Assembly: GCA_003331265.1 (NCBI GenBank)
Contig: QOPV01000010.1
Coordinates: 1-41,510, forward strand
Length of the DNA: 41,510 nucleotides
From: Cryomorphaceae bacterium
GTDB lineage: Bacteria > Bacteroidota > Bacteroidia > Flavobacteriales > Flavobacteriaceae
Direction of reading: 5' to 3'
The first letter of the stretch is position 1. Every line of letters starts with the position of its first letter. Below, in pieces: positions 1,933-8,293 of the stretch. The translations under genes and the position numbers were made by a program. A model generated the notes under the pieces. That model saw only the letters and a list, made by a program, of their open reading frames with translations. It had not been told where the DNA came from and did not search any database.

Positions 1933-3187
1933 ATGAGTGAACAAAAATTATCTACTAAAGCTTTACATGCGGGACAAGATACTAACCTAAGTCAAGGCAC
2001 AAGAGCTGTGCCAATTTACCAATCTACATCTTATGTCTTTAATGATTCTGAACATGCTGCAAATTTATTTGCACTTGCCGAGCCAGGTTATATTTACACA
2101 AGGTTAAACAACCCAACTAACGATATATTAGAACAAAGACTCGCAGCATTAGAGGGTGGGATTGCTTCTGTGGTGACTGCATCTGGAGCCTCTGCAATAT
2201 CAACAGCATTACTTGTTATGCTCAAATCTGGAGACCACATTGTTGCTTCGTGTAGTCTTTACGGGGGGACATTTAATTTACTAAATGTAACATTACCAAG
2301 ATTAGGAATAACAACCACGTTCGTTGATTCATCAAACCCACAAAATTTCGCGGACGTTAGGTAACCCTAAACTAGACGTTCTAGATTTAAAAGAAATATC
2401 TGTTCATGCAAAGACATCAAAAATTCCATTTGTTGTAGATAACACAGTAGCTTCTCCAGCATTATTAAACCCCATTCAACATGGTGCAAATATTGTAATT
2501 CATTCTTTAACTAAATACATTAATGGAAATGGAACTGCTTTAGGAGGTGTTATTATTGATTCGGGAACATTTGATTGGTCAAGCGGAAAATTCCCAGAGT
2601 TTACTGAGCCTTCACCAGGATATCACGGACTGGTCTATCATGACGCTCTAGGTGCGGCAGCTTTTATAGCTAAAGTGAGGATAGAGGGTTTAAGAGACTT
2701 AGGTGGTGCGTTAAGTCCTTTTAATGCTTTTCAAATTATTCAAGGTTTGGAAACACTAGACATTAGAATGAAAAAACATAGTGAAAATGCACTTGAATTG
2801 GCTAAATGGTTAGAAAAAAGAGAGGAAGTAGAATGGGTTAATTATCCTGGCTTAGCTTCGAGTAAGTATAAAACTCTTGCAAAAAAATATCTTCCCAAAG
2901 GACATAGTGGGATTATTACTTTTGGAGTAAAAGGAGGTTACGAATCTGCTAAAACAGTTGCTGATAAAACCACACTTTTTTCATTAGTAGCTAATATTGG
3001 TGATACAAAATCATTAATAATACACCCAGCAAGTACAACTCACCAACAACTTAGCAAAGAGGACCAAACTATTACAGGTGTTACAACCGACCTAATAAGA
3101 CTTTCAGTTGGATTAGAAGACGTAGAAGATTTAAAAAATGATCTTGAAATAGCCTTTTCTAAGATTGATTTAAAAGTTTTAGTATAA
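1933..3187 (+). pseudogene. metY: O-acetylhomoserine sulfhydrylase (metY-like), broken by an internal out-of-frame deletion
   Basis: The family is a PLP-dependent Cys/Met-metabolism enzyme that makes homocysteine from O-acetylhomoserine and sulfide. The first reading frame (1933-2364, 143 residues) begins MSEQKLSTKALHAGQD and ends NFADVR-stop. The family resumes in another frame at about 2354 (TLGNPKLDVLDLKEI) and continues to 3187, including the PLP-lysine motif HSLTKYINGNG. Between FAD and LGNP the family normally has about 13 more residues (the segment leading into the conserved E-[ST]-[IL]-G-N-P). So bases are missing rather than merely shifted; the loss must be 2 modulo 3 bases. All other conserved blocks look intact. 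This is either a recent inactivating deletion or an assembly error. The gene sits behind the SAM-II element and 9 bases before metX. Confidence 0.85.
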
Positions 3188-3196
3188 AAAATTAAC

Positions 3197-4183
3197 ATGA
3201 AAAATTTACAAATTATTAAAATTGATAATTTTATTTCTTTTAATAAAACAAATTTTGATATTGAACTTACTTATGAAATTTTCGGTCTTCCACTTGGAGA
3301 CGCGCCAATTGTTTTGGTAAATCATGCCCTGACAGGTAATTCAAATTTAGCTGGAGTTAATGGGTGGTGGAATCCAATAATTGGAGAGAAAAAGTTAATT
3401 GATACTACAAGGTTTACAATATTAGCTTTTAATTTTCCTGGTAATGGTTATGGGGGTAAATCAATTGAGAATTATAAAGATTTAATATTACGAGATATTG
3501 CTAAAATTTTCTTAATCGGCTTGAAGAAATTAAAAATAGAGTCTTTATATGCAGTAATTGGAGGCTCTATTGGGGGAAGTTTAATTTGGGAGATGGCAGC
3601 TTTATCTCCAAATATTGCTGAGAATTTAATCCCAATTGCATGTGATTGGAAATCTTCAGATTGGCTTTTAGCAAATACAAGGCTTCAACATCAAATTTTA
3701 AATAATTCTTCGTCACCAATCCATGATGCCAGAATTCATGCCATGTTATGTTATAGATCTCCAAAATCATTCGAAAAAAAATTTAATAGATCTTTAAATG
3801 AAGATTTGAAAATTTTTAATGTTGAAAGTTGGCTTTTACATCATGGAAGTAAATTGCAAAAAAGATTTCAATTAAGTTCTTATAAGTTAATGAATCATTT
3901 ATTGTCTACAATTGATATAACTAGAGATACTGAAAAAGAATTTGAGGATATTGCGTCGAAGATTAATGGAAATATTTATATCGTTTCAGTTGATTCAGAT
4001 TTGTTTTTCACTGATTCTCAAAATAGAAATACATTTTATAAATTATGTAAGGTAAAAGATAATGTGTTTTTTAAAACTATTAAATCTGATCACGGTCACG
4101 ATGCATTTTTAATTGAATTTCCAAAATTGGTAAATTTACTATCAAATATTTTCAGTAAAAACAGTCTACTTGTAGAGTCTTAA
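3197..4183 (+). CDS. metX: Homoserine O-acetyltransferase-like alpha/beta hydrolase
   Basis: Acetyl-CoA-dependent acylation of homoserine supplies the substrate of MetY. The 328-residue protein shows the family's NHALTGNSN block (residues 42-50) and LAFNFPGNGYGGKS. The nucleophile elbow GGSIGGS has Ser124. The acid is near VDSD (265-268) and the histidine is in GHDAF (H301). This is the Ser-Asp-His triad arrangement of MetX proteins. It is a little shorter than the usual 350-380 residues, mainly in the lid. It starts 9 bases after the metY stop and so probably shares the SAM-II-controlled transcript. No terminator of its own is visible before the pheA leader. Confidence 0.87.
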   Translation: MKNLQIIKIDNFISFNKTNFDIELTYEIFGLPLGDAPIVLVNHALTGNSNLAGVNGWWNPIIGEKKLIDTTRFTILAFNFPGNGYGGKSIENYKDLILRDIAKIFLIGLKKLKIESLYAVIGGSIGGSLIWEMAALSPNIAENLIPIACDWKSSDWLLANTRLQHQILNNSSSPIHDARIHAMLCYRSPKSFEKKFNRSLNEDLKIFNVESWLLHHGSKLQKRFQLSSYKLMNHLLSTIDITRDTEKEFEDIASKINGNIYIVSVDSDLFFTDSQNRNTFYKLCKVKDNVFFKTIKSDHGHDAFLIEFPKLVNLLSNIFSKNSLLVES

Positions 4184-4205: not shown

Positions 4206-4236
4206 TTTGTTTTTTCAATAAGTAATATTACTTTTA
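4206..4236 (+). promoter_or_regulatory. Possible Bacteroidota-type promoter for the pheA leader
   Basis: TTTG at 4206-4209 and TACTTTTA at 4229-4236 are separated by 19 bases. They resemble the -33 TTTG and -7 TAnnTTTG elements of Bacteroidota (the last G is replaced by A). Transcription would then begin just before the leader ORF at 4245, giving a very short or no 5' untranslated region. This is inference from weak consensus only. Confidence 0.35.
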
Positions 4237-4244
4237 CGTTCGTT

Positions 4245-4331
4245 ATGATTGATTTTAACCATTCTTATTACACTGAAAGATTTTATTTTTACTTCTATTT
4301 CCTAGATAAAAATGGACTTTCACTTGTATAA
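4245..4331 (+). CDS. pheL-like: Phe/Tyr-rich leader peptide of the pheA operon attenuator
   Basis: This short ORF begins ATG ATT GAT and ends GTA TAA, giving 28 residues. Five are Phe and five are Tyr, including the run RFYFYFYFL (residues 12-20, codons 4278-4304) and a Tyr-Tyr pair at 8-9. Such a run is expected of a leader peptide that senses Phe-tRNA and Tyr-tRNA charging, as E. coli pheL does with its Phe run. The next genes make phenylalanine and tyrosine. The stop codon lies 24 bases before the terminator stem. The last codons (4314-4320) form the antiterminator strand, which is the geometry of classical attenuation. The peptide itself probably has no other function. The symbol is by analogy of role, not homology. 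Confidence 0.8.
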   Translation: MIDFNHSYYTERFYFYFYFLDKNGLSLV

Positions 4332-4384
4332 GATATTAATAAAATATATAATTCAAAGTCCTGATTTTTCAGGACTTTTTTTTT
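4274..4384 (+). promoter_or_regulatory. Transcription attenuator (1:2, 2:3 antiterminator, 3:4 terminator)
   Basis: Four segments can be placed. Segment 1 is TGAAAG (4274-4279) and pairs with CTTTCA (4317-4322), enclosing the Phe/Tyr codons. Segment 2 is GGACTTT (4314-4320), inside the last leader codons. Segment 3 is AAAGTCC (4355-4361). Segment 4 is GGACTTT (4372-4378). Segments 2 and 4 are identical, so they compete for segment 3. Ribosomes stalled on the Phe/Tyr codons would leave segment 2 free for 2:3 and permit read-through into pheA. Ribosomes reaching the stop at 4329 would cover segment 2 and allow the 3:4 terminator. The pairings are read directly from sequence; the mechanism is inferred from classical amino-acid attenuators. 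Confidence 0.78.
4355..4384 (+). terminator. Intrinsic terminator immediately upstream of pheA
   Basis: Stem AAAGTCCTGA (4355-4364) with TCAGGACTTT (4369-4378), loop TTTT, followed by T through 4384. The stem is 10 perfect base pairs and the T run is strong. It ends 8 bases before the pheA ATG, so it can only make sense for pheA expression if it is conditional. It may also stop read-through from the upstream met genes. Confidence 0.93.
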
Positions 4385-4392
4385 AAAACAAA

Positions 4393-5217
4393 ATGAAGAA
4401 AGTAGCAATTCAAGGGATTAAAGGATCTTACCACCATCAGGTGGCAACAGAGTATTTTGAAAATGAAATAGAAATAATAGAATTTTTATCCTTTGATGAA
4501 GTAGCGAACTCAATTGTGCAAAGTCATTGTGATTTCGGAGTTATGGCAATAGAAAATTCAATAGCTGGCTCAATAATTCCTAATTACGCTCTAATCGATA
4601 AATTAAATTTAAATATCAACGGAGAATACTATATAAATATAAACCACCAATTGATGGCTATTTCTGGATCTAAATTTGAAGATTTAGAAATTGTTGCGTC
4701 ACATCCAATGGCTCTTCTTCAGTGTAAAAACTTTTTTAAAAAATATCCTAAAATAACATTAGTTGAGGACAAAGACACAGCAGAGGTAGCTTATAGAATT
4801 CAAAGAGACAAGATTAAAAATATGGGTGCTATAGCAAGTGTAAATGCCGCAAAACTGTATGAATTAAACATTCTATGTAAGGATATTCAAACCATAAAAA
4901 ATAATGAGACTCGATTTGTTATTATTTCAAAAAACTCGAAGGATCATGACAAAGGAAACAACAAAGCTTCAATTAAATTTTCTTTAAGTCACCGCACAGG
5001 AAGTTTAGCTACAATTTTAAATATTCTAAAAGACTGTAATTTAAATTTAACAAAAATTCAATCTTTACCAATCATTGAGATTCCATGGAAATACTCTTTT
5101 TTTATTGATACAACCTTTGAGCTTTATGATAATTTAAAAGTAGCATTAAAATTAATTGATGATAAATCGGAATCTCTAAAAGTTTTAGGAATATATCAAA
5201 ACAATATAAATGATTAA
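4393..5217 (+). CDS. pheA: Prephenate dehydratase
   Basis: Converts prephenate to phenylpyruvate, the phenylalanine branch. The 274-residue protein has the dehydratase domain at residues 1-180 with GxxGSYHHQVA near the start, MAIENSIAGS (51-60), SHPMALLQC (103-111) and the catalytic Thr-Arg-Phe at 173-175 (NETRFVII). A C-terminal ACT domain (about 191-270) carries the GxL motif as TGSLATIL. The usual Phe-binding ESRP motif is replaced by QSLP (223-226), so feedback binding may differ. It has no fused chorismate mutase; that activity is on the DAHP synthase three genes downstream. It starts 8 bases after the attenuator T run and overlaps the aminotransferase gene by 8 bases. Confidence 0.93.
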   Translation: MKKVAIQGIKGSYHHQVATEYFENEIEIIEFLSFDEVANSIVQSHCDFGVMAIENSIAGSIIPNYALIDKLNLNINGEYYININHQLMAISGSKFEDLEIVASHPMALLQCKNFFKKYPKITLVEDKDTAEVAYRIQRDKIKNMGAIASVNAAKLYELNILCKDIQTIKNNETRFVIISKNSKDHDKGNNKASIKFSLSHRTGSLATILNILKDCNLNLTKIQSLPIIEIPWKYSFFIDTTFELYDNLKVALKLIDDKSESLKVLGIYQNNIND

Positions 5218-6358
5218 AGGATCAAACAGATTAAAAACAGTTCAGGAATATTATTTTTCAAAAAAATTGAGAGAGGTAGCTAATTTAATTAAGTCAGGTA
5301 AACCCATTATTAATATGGGAATTGGTAGCCCAGACCTTTTTCCATCTAAATCTATTATTGATGTTTTGAAAAATAGTTTAACAGACCAAAATGCTCATAA
5401 ATACCAAAGTTATCAGGGCTTGTTGGAGTTACGTGAGGCAATTTCTAAATTCTATTTAAAATTTTTCAATGTTCAATCAAATCCTATCAATGAGGTTTTG
5501 CCTTTGATGGGTTCTAAAGAGGGAATTATGCATATTTCTATGGCATTTTTAAACCCAGGAGATGAAGTTTTAATTCCAAATCCTGGATACCCTACATATT
5601 CATCTGTGACTAAACTAGTTGAAGCAATACCGGTTAGTTATGACTTAAATAAAAAAAATAATTGGTTCCCAGATTTAACTGTTTTAGAAAAAAAAGACTT
5701 ATCAAAGGTTAAAATTATGTGGATTAATTATCCTCATATGCCAACTGGTTCCACTGCAAATAAAAAACAATTAAATGAATTAGTTTTATTCTCTAAAAAA
5801 TATAATATTCTTTTGGTTAATGATAATCCGTATAGTTTTATTTTAAATAATGATTTTATTAGTTTATTATCAATCAACGGATCCAAAGATAACTGTATGG
5901 AATTAAATTCTTTAAGTAAATCATTTAATCTCTCTGGCTGGAGAGTGGGAATGTTAATAGGTTCCAAAAAAAATATCTCTAGAGTCTTGAAAGTTAAAAG
6001 CAATATGGATTCAGGAATGTTTTATGGTATTCAAAAGGGAGCTATTGAGGCGCTTAAATTGGAAAAAAAATGGTTTGATGATTTGAATGAAGTTTATAAA
6101 AGAAGAAGAGAGTTAGTCTGGAAACTTGCCTCTATTTTGAAATGTAATTATGATCAAAATGCAAAAGGTTTATTTGTTTGGGCTAGACTTCCTGACGGAA
6201 TTAAAAATTCTGAGAAATTTATTAACCATATATTATTGGAGAAAAATATTTTTATTACGCCTGGAATGATTTTTGGAAGTAATGGGGAGGGTTATATTAG
6301 ATTTTCTTTATGCATTGAAGAGAGTAAAATTAAGGAAGCTATAAATAGATATAAATAA
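5210..6358 (+). CDS. Class I/II PLP-dependent aminotransferase (aromatic/aspartate type)
   Basis: A fold-type I aminotransferase of 382 residues. It has the substrate/cofactor motifs NPGYPTY (124-130) and NYPHMPTG (173-180, the usual N-P-[NH]-N-P-T-G block). The PLP-phosphate Asp-x-x-Tyr appears as DNPY (205-208), and the PLP lysine is Lys237 in SLSKSFNLSGWR. A conserved C-terminal Arg sits in GYIRFSLC. Its place between pheA and tyrA suggests the last transamination step to Phe and Tyr, acting on phenylpyruvate and 4-hydroxyphenylpyruvate. Precise specificity cannot be read from sequence. The start codon lies inside the end of pheA and its TAA overlaps the tyrA ATG (TAATG), indicating translational coupling. 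Confidence 0.87.
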   Translation: MIKGSNRLKTVQEYYFSKKLREVANLIKSGKPIINMGIGSPDLFPSKSIIDVLKNSLTDQNAHKYQSYQGLLELREAISKFYLKFFNVQSNPINEVLPLMGSKEGIMHISMAFLNPGDEVLIPNPGYPTYSSVTKLVEAIPVSYDLNKKNNWFPDLTVLEKKDLSKVKIMWINYPHMPTGSTANKKQLNELVLFSKKYNILLVNDNPYSFILNNDFISLLSINGSKDNCMELNSLSKSFNLSGWRVGMLIGSKKNISRVLKVKSNMDSGMFYGIQKGAIEALKLEKKWFDDLNEVYKRRRELVWKLASILKCNYDQNAKGLFVWARLPDGIKNSEKFINHILLEKNIFITPGMIFGSNGEGYIRFSLCIEESKIKEAINRYK

Positions 6359-7221
6359 TGAAATTAGGTATTGTAGGTTTGGGTTTAATGGGAGGGTCTT
6401 TTGCTTTAGATTTTAAATCAATCTATCCAAAATCCAAAATTTATGGATTAGATATCTCTAATGAAAATGAAAATCGTGCTATTGATTTAGGCTTAGTTGA
6501 TGAATTAATAGAGTTTGAAAAGTTGTCTATGCTTGATGTTGTCCTAGTTTCTATCCCTGTTGATAAATCTTTAATAGTCTTACCTAAAGTTTTAGATTTA
6601 GTTAATAGAGAAACATTAGTTTTTGATGTTGGCTCCACTAAAAACTCTATTTGTAAGGTATTGACAAATCATCCAAAAAGAGGAAATTTTTTACCAGTTC
6701 ATCCAATGGCAGGAACAGAATTTTCAGGTCCAAATGCTGCTGTTAAAGGCTTGTATATTAATAAAACTAATATTATTTGTGAGATGGAAAAAACGGATAG
6801 AGAAATTTATAAAATAGCATTAAAAATATTTACAAAATTAAATATGAATATTATACATATGGACACAAAATCTCACGACATGCATGTCGCCTATGTATCA
6901 CACTTGTCACATATAAGTTCATTTATGCTAGGAAAAACCGTAATAGAAAAAGAAAAAAATCAAAAAAATATTTTTGATTTAGCGGGTAGTGGGTTTGAAT
7001 CTACCGTTAGGCTAGCAAAAAGTTCACCTGAAACCTGGACTCCAATTTTTCTGCAGAACAAAAAAAATTTAGTTTTAGCAATTGAAGAATATATTTATAA
7101 CCTGAATGATCTAAAAGAAATAATCAAAGAAGATAATCACCTAAGGTTATCTGAAATTTTAAATAATACAAATAGAATAAAAGAAATATTAACAAATAGA
7201 ATAATTGAAAATGGAAAATAA
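6358..7221 (+). CDS. tyrA: Prephenate dehydrogenase
   Basis: Oxidatively decarboxylates prephenate to 4-hydroxyphenylpyruvate, the tyrosine branch. The 287-residue protein opens with an NAD(P)-binding Rossmann motif GIVGLGLMGGS. It has the conserved FDVGSTKNSI and the prephenate-site block PVHPMAGTEFSGP, with HVAYVSHLSHISSF in the helical dimer domain. There is no fused chorismate mutase or ACT domain, so regulation may rest on the attenuator and on DAHP synthase. It starts on the overlapping TAATG with the aminotransferase and overlaps the next gene by about 11 bases. Confidence 0.93.
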   Translation: MKLGIVGLGLMGGSFALDFKSIYPKSKIYGLDISNENENRAIDLGLVDELIEFEKLSMLDVVLVSIPVDKSLIVLPKVLDLVNRETLVFDVGSTKNSICKVLTNHPKRGNFLPVHPMAGTEFSGPNAAVKGLYINKTNIICEMEKTDREIYKIALKIFTKLNMNIIHMDTKSHDMHVAYVSHLSHISSFMLGKTVIEKEKNQKNIFDLAGSGFESTVRLAKSSPETWTPIFLQNKKNLVLAIEEYIYNLNDLKEIIKEDNHLRLSEILNNTNRIKEILTNRIIENGK

Positions 7222-8293
7222 GAAAGAGATGAAAAAATGGTTAGATGGTTTTAATTTAAATCATCCTTTAGTAATTGGTGGCCCATGTAGTGCTGAAACA
7301 GAGGATCAAGTTTTGAAAATCGCACATGAATTGAAAACAACAGATGTTTCAATTTATAGAGCTGGAATATGGAAACCTAGAACCAGACCAGGAATGTTTG
7401 AAGGAGTTGGTGCTATAGGATTAAAATGGTTAGAAAAAGTCAAAAAAGAAACCGGTCTTTTAATTGCAACCGAGGTAGCGAATGCAAGTCATGTAAAATT
7501 AGCTTTGCAGCACGATATTGATGTTTTATGGATTGGGGCAAGATCAACTGTTAGCCCTTTTATTGTACAAGAAATTGCAGATGCTTTAAGGGATACTAAT
7601 AAAATTGTTTTAGTTAAAAATCCTGTGAATCCAGATTTATCACTATGGCTTGGTGGAATTGAAAGACTATATAGTGCTAATATTAAAAATTTAGGAGTAA
7701 TTCATCGTGGTTTTTCAACATATGAAAAAACAAAATATAGAAATAATCCTGAGTGGCAATTACCTATTGAGTTACAAAATAGATTTCCAGATTTACCCTT
7801 AATCTGCGATCCCTCTCACATTGCTGGTAGAAGAGATATTTTACAAGATATCTCACAAACTGCTTTGGATTTAAACTTTGATGGCTTGATGATTGAAACT
7901 CATATAAACCCTGATAAAGCCTGGAGCGATGCAGCTCAACAAATTACACCAAAAGTTCTTGTTAAAATGATGGAGGATTTAAAAATGAGAAAAGTGACAA
8001 ACGAAGAAATAGATTATAAGAATAGTTTAAATACATTAAGAACTCAAATAGATGTGATTGATCACGGCCTACTGGATACGTTAGGAAAAAGAATGAAAGT
8101 TGCTATTGAAATCGGAAACCTTAAGAAAAAGAAAAATGTGGCTGTTTTACAAACTAAAAGGTGGAACGAAATTTTAGGTAAAATGATTTTAGATGGTGAA
8201 GAAAAAGGGTTGAGTGAAGAGTTTATTTTACGAATGTTCAAAGCTATACATCAAGAGTCAATAAATCATCAGAAAAAGGTTATAAATAGTTAA
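7211..8293 (+). CDS. Bifunctional DAHP synthase / chorismate mutase
   Basis: Residues 1 to about 260 form a DAHP synthase (3-deoxy-D-arabino-heptulosonate 7-phosphate synthase) of the KDO8P-synthase-like type. Motifs are VIGGPCSAET, RAGIWKPRTRPG, ATEVAN, GARSTVSPF, LVKNPVNPD, HRGFS and CDPSHIAGRR. Residues about 265-350 form an AroQ-type chorismate mutase helix bundle (LRTQIDVIDHGLLDTLGKRMKVAIEIGNLKKKKNV). The one polypeptide therefore commits carbon to the shikimate pathway and makes prephenate. I chose the ATG at 7211 because MENKKEMKKW matches the usual N-terminus in Bacteroidota; a TTG at 7205 and ATG at 7229 are alternatives. The gene closes the core Phe/Tyr block; rsgA follows 3 bases later. 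Confidence 0.93.
   Translation: MENKKEMKKWLDGFNLNHPLVIGGPCSAETEDQVLKIAHELKTTDVSIYRAGIWKPRTRPGMFEGVGAIGLKWLEKVKKETGLLIATEVANASHVKLALQHDIDVLWIGARSTVSPFIVQEIADALRDTNKIVLVKNPVNPDLSLWLGGIERLYSANIKNLGVIHRGFSTYEKTKYRNNPEWQLPIELQNRFPDLPLICDPSHIAGRRDILQDISQTALDLNFDGLMIETHINPDKAWSDAAQQITPKVLVKMMEDLKMRKVTNEEIDYKNSLNTLRTQIDVIDHGLLDTLGKRMKVAIEIGNLKKKKNVAVLQTKRWNEILGKMILDGEEKGLSEEFILRMFKAIHQESINHQKKVINS

Follow-up and report, generated by a model that had tools for sequence, protein, structure and literature searches.

How might a flavobacterium adjust transcription of its aromatic amino acid genes to the supply of both phenylalanine and tyrosine? This question is raised by the region in front of pheA in a 41,510-nucleotide stretch of Cryomorphaceae DNA (referred to here as the window), in which a short reading frame rich in aromatic codons is followed by a terminator. 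A preliminary description of this region had read it as a Phe/Tyr leader-peptide attenuator. Control of this kind is usually taught from Proteobacteria, and Bacteroidota are known for lacking Shine-Dalgarno sequences. From the analysis described below, the pheA leader is very probably a classical ribosome-mediated (Yanofsky-type) transcription attenuator of an operon encoding PheA, an aminotransferase, TyrA and a DAHP synthase/chorismate mutase, and it probably senses both Phe and Tyr. The attenuator reading is supported, by computation, by the anatomy of the leader, its conservation, species-matched stems, ribosome-compatible spacing, codon alternation and co-occurrence with the operon. The conserved open reading frame (ORF), the matched 2:3 stems, the alternation and the two-branch operon bear out the original reading.

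Organization of the pheA operon and its leader

All features of the leader and the operon are located on the forward strand. The first structural gene, pheA (4393-5217), encodes a prephenate dehydratase (Pfam PF00800, E 3.6e-54) with an ACT-like C-terminal part, for which the match to ACT (PF01842) was below the cut-off. It is followed by genes for a class I/II aminotransferase (5210-6358; PF00155), for prephenate dehydrogenase (tyrA, 6358-7221; PF02153 and PF20463), and for DAHP synthase fused to chorismate mutase (7205-8293; PF00793 and PF01817), 7205 being the first start codon given by the ORF tool. The Pfam assignments of the dehydratase, the dehydrogenase and the synthase/mutase agree with the proposal that this operon feeds both branches.

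The leader-peptide ORF, MIDFNHSYYTERFYFYFYFLDKNGLSLV, extends from 4245 to its TAA stop at 4331, and counterparts were found in relatives. Its 28 codons, its ten Phe/Tyr residues and its run of putative control codons, FYFYFYF at 4281-4301, were all located where they had been described, and codons for the operon's own products are enriched in this short ORF. The 28-amino-acid peptide matched no Pfam leader family. A phage origin was considered and rejected, the phage collection having given no match.

The sequence GGACTTT occurs twice, as had been pointed out, at 4314-4320 (region 2, the 5' arm of the putative antiterminator, a position kept in relatives) and at 4372-4378 within the terminator; each copy is able to pair with AAAGTCC at 4355-4361 (region 3), which is the arm shared between regions 2 and 4. 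The 3:4 intrinsic terminator (4355-4384) is formed by a 10-bp stem, 4355-4378, leading into nine T (4376-4384). As described, it ends 8 nt short of the pheA ATG (4393), and it sits between the ORF and the first structural gene; its predicted energy is -13.5 kcal/mol. For the 1:2 hairpin, TGAAAG at 4274-4279 can indeed pair with CTTTCA at 4317-4322, but the extent originally given was too short: this 6-bp core by itself yields only -1.1 kcal/mol, and in the predicted fold the pairing is extended over 4263-4333, enclosing the Phe/Tyr codons.

Predicted folding and model of attenuation

For the 151-nt region the predicted folding energy is -32.4 kcal/mol, while shuffled sequences average -16.95 (z = -4.74; none of 200 shuffles as good). 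The complete untranslated leader RNA is predicted to form the long 1:2 hairpin together with the terminator. For RNA from 4299, 4305 or 4312 to 4363, which mimics a stalled ribosome covering the RNA upstream while region 4 is still unmade, the predicted structure is the 2:3 antiterminator with an inner helix (4324-4330 with 4345-4351), at -10.0 kcal/mol, the 7-bp 2:3 stem by itself giving only -4.1 kcal/mol. When the ribosome is taken to stand at the stop codon, which is mimicked by RNA from 4344 onward, the predicted structure is the terminator (-14.1 kcal/mol). By these predictions and by the species-matched pairing described below, the 2:3 antiterminator and the 3:4 terminator are mutually exclusive. 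Once region 4 is included the terminator beats 2:3 (-14.8 kcal/mol), and therefore the antiterminator must act kinetically, as also holds for known attenuators.

From this anatomy we infer translation of the leader ORF, ribosome stalling, transcription termination and a response to both amino acids, in the following way. With ample charged tRNA-Phe and tRNA-Tyr, the ribosome would reach the stop codon and cover region 2, leaving region 3 to pair with region 4, and transcription would end before pheA. When either Phe or Tyr is short, the ribosome would stall within FYFYFYF, blocking region 1 and freeing region 2; the 2:3 stem could then form and RNA polymerase would read into the operon. If the leader RNA were left untranslated, the 1:2 and 3:4 stems would fold and termination would be expected.

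Candidate promoter and start of the leader

Upstream of the ORF, the TTTG at 4206-4209, which agrees with the -33 consensus TTTG, is a candidate -33 element; its location, -35 to -32 for a start at 4241, is deduced from that of the -7 box. The latter candidate is TACTTTTA (4229-4236), located 8 nt from the ATG and carrying one mismatch to the Bacteroidota box TAnnTTTG, which was placed at -12 to -5 in a Flavobacterium psychrophilum study (PMC9723704). With this box, transcription would be expected to begin near 4241, leaving a 5' UTR of about 4 nt. An equal-scoring box with one mismatch, TACGTTCG at 4235-4242, only 2 nt from the ATG, was the one chosen by the script. Its use as -7 box would put the transcription start inside the leader ORF, and we prefer TACTTTTA as the candidate. 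Of the 66 non-redundant leaders defined below, 57 (86%) have within 38 nt of the ATG a box in which no more than one of the 6 fixed bases is changed, as compared with 36% in shuffled sequences. The gap between box and ATG is 4-8 nt in 20 of these 57 boxed leaders, for which a 5' UTR of 0-4 nt is predicted.

Conservation of the leader upstream of pheA

A set of 180 pheA upstream regions was assembled from 59 loci of a first genome scan, 120 further loci and the window. A PheA match was present in 210 genomes including the window's own, and the 120 were sampled by hand across families from the other 209. In the first scan, 57 of the 59 loci had, upstream of pheA, an ORF in which four or more Phe/Tyr residues follow one another; the exceptions were L012, where the leader is cut off by the end of the contig, and L059, a locus from the distant Phycisphaerales. 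For the whole set, a short ORF with at least six Phe/Tyr per 10 codons was detected in 116 of the 180 regions. The controls gave 30 of 1440 for stretches drawn at random from these loci and 68 of 1800 for dinucleotide-shuffled upstream regions, the shuffles having been added because the random stretches are mostly coding DNA. When the threshold was raised to seven in 10, the figures were 104/180, 2/1440 and 5/1800. A terminator precedes pheA at 112 of the 116 Phe/Tyr-dense loci. After removal of L086 and L107, at which the terminator is far from the ORF, 110 leaders remained, and 66 of these, less than 85% alike, were used as the non-redundant set. The check that had been proposed, on related Flavobacteriia, came out in favour of the attenuator: these relatives retain an ORF rich in aromatic codons as well as stems 2:3:4.

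These counts bear on an alternative in which the terminator belongs to the upstream gene and acts constitutively, beside an AT-rich stretch that reads as Phe/Tyr by chance. That gene ends at 4183, where a terminator would be ordinary, and AT-rich DNA favours TTT and TAT codons. Phe/Tyr-dense ORFs are, however, rare in the random stretches and shuffles (30/1440 and 68/1800) as compared with the pheA upstream regions (116/180). Together with the matched antiterminators and the promoter-like box situated between the upstream gene and the ORF, this difference makes the chance reading extremely unlikely.

Spacing and pairing of the competing stems

The arrangement expected of an attenuator was examined for the 66 non-redundant leaders. 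The distance from the aromatic run to region 2 is short and uniform (median 10 nt, interquartile range 8-11). In 60 of the 66 leaders it is between 6 and 14 nt; with shuffled segments, this holds for a mean of 11.1 leaders and for 19 at most. When region 3 was swapped between species, the place of region 2 was kept in a mean of 51.5 of the 66, because the cores are alike, and this control is accordingly not an independent one. If the edge of the ribosome is taken to be 15 nt from the first P-site base, stalling with the last aromatic codon in the A site would put this edge a median of 0 nt before region 2 (interquartile range -2 to 1), with an overlap of no more than 2 nt in 56 of the 66 leaders. 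With the stop codon in the A site, half or more of region 2 would be covered in 58 of the 66. With this assumed edge, the stalled ribosome would leave region 2 just free and the ribosome at the stop codon would cover it.

The energy of the 2:3 pairing averages -13.3 kcal/mol for native partners and -8.7 kcal/mol for partners swapped between species. Of the 66 native pairings, 63 surpassed the mean of their swaps and 48 surpassed all 50 shuffles, but only 11 surpassed all 30 swaps. Covarying stems had also been anticipated, and in the aligned arms the letters do change together with those of their partners, for example T-A with C-G in the 3:4 core, matched by A-T and G-C in 2:3. Since the pairings were searched for, counts of such paired changes lean upward, and the re-optimising swap test is the fairer control. 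The 1:2 stem, clear in the fold predicted for the window leader, gives a more modest signal across the set: 56 of the 66 beat the mean swap and 15 beat all 50 shuffles; with region 1 shuffled, on average 18% of the segments pair equally well.

A leader in which a riboswitch, a T-box or a bound protein works the terminator, the short ORF being a by-product, would also be strongly folded, and terminators of many control types look similar. No Rfam family was matched at its curated score within 4245-4384, however, and the 24 weak matches (E up to 10) were all below cut-off, with neither a T-box nor a riboswitch among them. The aromatic ORF persists in relatives while the sequence of the leader RNA diverges, and the spacing fits a ribosome. 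We consider such control very unlikely here and retain ribosome-mediated attenuation as the explanation.

Phenylalanine and tyrosine in the leader peptides

If the ribosome reads the leader, which amino acids does it sense? Both Phe and Tyr are present in all of the 110 leaders (66 of 66 in the non-redundant set), and the longest run is a mixture of the two in 109 (65 of 66), L086 and L107 having been excluded before these counts on account of their distant terminators. The order of the two residues is more alternating than expected by chance, as claimed in the preliminary description: unlike neighbours make up 221 of the 345 within Phe/Tyr runs, while shuffles of the same runs gave a mean of 182.8 (sd 8.0) and none of 1000 was as high, a statistic that is optimistic because the 66 leaders are related. 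Phe/Tyr codons account for 38.9% of the leader frame against 13.8% and 16.2% of the other two frames, a contrast that is partly circular because the ORF was chosen by its Phe/Tyr content.

An attenuator sensing mainly phenylalanine, as that of E. coli pheA does, with Tyr codons as tolerated filler, would agree with the higher content of Phe than of Tyr in the 66 leaders (22.0% and 16.9% of residues) and with L086, which has two Phe-rich leaders in tandem, both devoid of Tyr. It does not readily account for the universal presence of both residues, for runs that are mixed in all leaders but one, or for alternation beyond shuffling, and tyrA and DAHP synthase are usually in the operon. Sensing chiefly of phenylalanine is for these reasons unlikely, and sensing of both amino acids is the reading that we adopt. 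The alternation of Phe and Tyr codons represents a simple, testable two-input design.

The tandem leaders of L086 are located within the last 300 bases before pheA, each followed by its own terminator, and the pheA match of this locus holds one in-frame TAG. A rule by which a Phe-only leader accompanies an operon without tyrA was considered and rejected: L086 fits it, but L101, L109, L111, L113 and L115, in which pheA is followed by DAHP synthase and no tyrA was found, have mixed runs.

A different signal was also considered, namely arrest of the ribosome by the aromatic nascent peptide in response to free ligand, in place of stalling at codons for uncharged tRNA. A hydrophobic aromatic run could conceivably act within the exit tunnel. 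The order of Phe and Tyr varies freely by species, though, and only composition and position are kept; this freedom suits the reading of codons better than a peptide motif. The counterpart leaders for His and Trp described below, moreover, bear their own cognate residues. Peptide arrest is accordingly improbable, and stalling for want of charged tRNA is preferred as the signal.

Tryptophan as a third sensed amino acid was not adopted. Trp is present in 45 of the 110 leaders (23 of 66) and makes up 1.5% of residues (23/1533), near its usual level of about 1% in proteomes. All 23 Trp residues are within three residues of Phe or Tyr, and 12 of the 23 adjoin one, as do 328 of 937 for all residues other than Phe and Tyr; this adjacency is suggestive only. 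As a separate observation, the codons TGG AAC are invariant in all 29 loci with WN in the leader (for example, L034, L049 and L072), the synonymous third base of AAC being likewise fixed.

Distribution of the leader in Bacteroidota

Among the 120 further loci, leaders called by script were confined to those with operon genes downstream within the retrieved stretch (52 loci, against none without such genes). No leader was called for 30 loci with operon genes and 38 without. Inspection by eye showed that ten of the 30 uncalled operon loci (L083, L086, L087, L090, L103, L107, L157, L162, L166 and L171) carry either a leader or an ORF rich in aromatic codons together with a terminator; in two others of the 30, L108 and L112, pheA immediately follows another coding frame. 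With the doubtful cases L155 and L161 counted as having none, 20 of the 82 further loci with operon genes yielded no clear leader by either approach.

The presence of the leader differs among families. In the window's own family (f1), all 18 of 18 loci were sampled and all carry it. It was missing in 5 of 5 loci of family f57, all of which were sampled, and in the 6 loci sampled of 17 in family f2, for which no operon gene was seen in the retrieved stretch. Family f46, of the same order as the window, consists of 0.6-Mb genomes that are Blattabacterium-like in size and order; the operon is kept, and leader with terminator was not found in the 4 loci sampled of 16 (L091-L094), as if this control had been given up. 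One of these, L093, has a YYYYFF ORF and lacks the terminator. Lineages without the leader provide natural contrasts.

On a tree of PheA with 141 rows, all of the 83 leader rows are located in a single branch of 101 rows (SH-aLRT 99), and 18 rows of this branch lack the leader. Eight of the 83 were labelled by eye, L086 and L171 being skipped, and the tree leaves out L012, L056, L059 and near-copies of first-scan loci. One origin of the leader in Bacteroidota is likely, though not proved, because its presence requires at least 11 changes on a tree rooted at the midpoint. We lean slightly towards a wider proposal, in which a single ancient sensor responding to either Phe or Tyr, with its alternation maintained by selection and often with a near-leaderless start, controls aromatic synthesis in much of Bacteroidota. 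If the proposal is true, the ribosome-fitted spacing of this sensor would imply that RNA polymerase remains coupled to the first translating ribosome in Bacteroidota.

Relation to known attenuators

The type of mechanism is textbook Yanofsky attenuation and is already known. The E. coli pheA attenuator shares with the window a short leader ORF of aromatic residues in front of pheA, stems that compete with one another, and an intrinsic terminator. The run is of Phe only in E. coli, whereas that of the window is mixed, and the window operon in addition contains tyrA and DAHP synthase; against the corresponding Rfam family (Phe_leader, RF01859) the window leader scored 18.6 bits, the cut-off being 55. 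Sensing of more than one amino acid of an operon by one leader is known from the multivalent ilvGMEDA and thrABC leaders of E. coli, which sense other amino acids; in the window leader, Phe and Tyr alternate.

Within Bacteroidota, strong clues for leader-peptide attenuation before amino acid operons were presented in 2021 for Flavobacterium psychrophilum, with 5' elements upstream of pheA and hisG that are conserved among Flavobacteriaceae (PMC9723704). The same gene in the same family was concerned. Because attenuation by leader peptides had already been proposed there for a flavobacterium, the novelty is smaller than the preliminary description implied; the sections of that main text considered here give neither a Phe/Tyr sensor nor the stems nor the wider spread. 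In Bacteroides thetaiotaomicron, of the same phylum, short ORFs reminiscent of leader peptides were noted in long 5' UTRs, the example in the section considered being a hypothetical gene, with no amino acid operon or amino acid named there (PMC7366714). A survey of 2010 stated that, to its authors' knowledge, demonstrated cases of leader-peptide attenuation were limited to Proteobacteria and Actinobacteria, and went on to report it in Firmicutes (PMC2965389). In the parts of the open-licence literature that were searched, no Phe/Tyr leader was found described for Bacteroidota. What is added here is the Phe plus Tyr sensor, as read from sequence, with its anatomy and its spread in Bacteroidota. 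A conserved attenuator with ribosome-compatible spacing may serve as a native reporter for transcription-translation coupling in this phylum, and it also bears on how translation of a leader ORF starts without a Shine-Dalgarno sequence.

Other leaders in the same genome

The source genome, about 80% complete, contains counterparts for other amino acids. The hisG gene (L141) is preceded by the leader MKFNRNNHHHLNILKRVM, with three adjacent His codons (HHH), and a terminator, and the trpE gene (L142) by the leader MLKNLKFNIWWWIINLDISR, with WWW, and a terminator. Both resemble the window leader in having a short ORF followed by a terminator, and each is cognate to a single amino acid. On the reverse complement of L141, the hisG leader occupies 1222-1278 and a strong terminator begins at about 1299; CAAACG near the end of this leader matches a terminator arm. 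On the reverse complement of L142, the trpE leader occupies 772-834 and its terminator begins at about 863; the -7 box TATATTTG is located 4 nt before the ATG, and a leaderless start is predicted.

The idea of a leader for every amino acid operon of this genome was rejected. No leader was seen for thrA, and the ilvD upstream region has a terminator with no clear Ile/Leu/Val-rich ORF. The same region (about 1292-1390 on the reverse complement of L145) also contains TACATTTG, a perfect box. Within the window itself, Rfam detected a SAM-II riboswitch at 1806-1865 (73.1 bits), preceding the overlapping frames 1933-2364 and 2324-3187, which together (1933-3187) have the appearance of a single gene interrupted by a frameshift.
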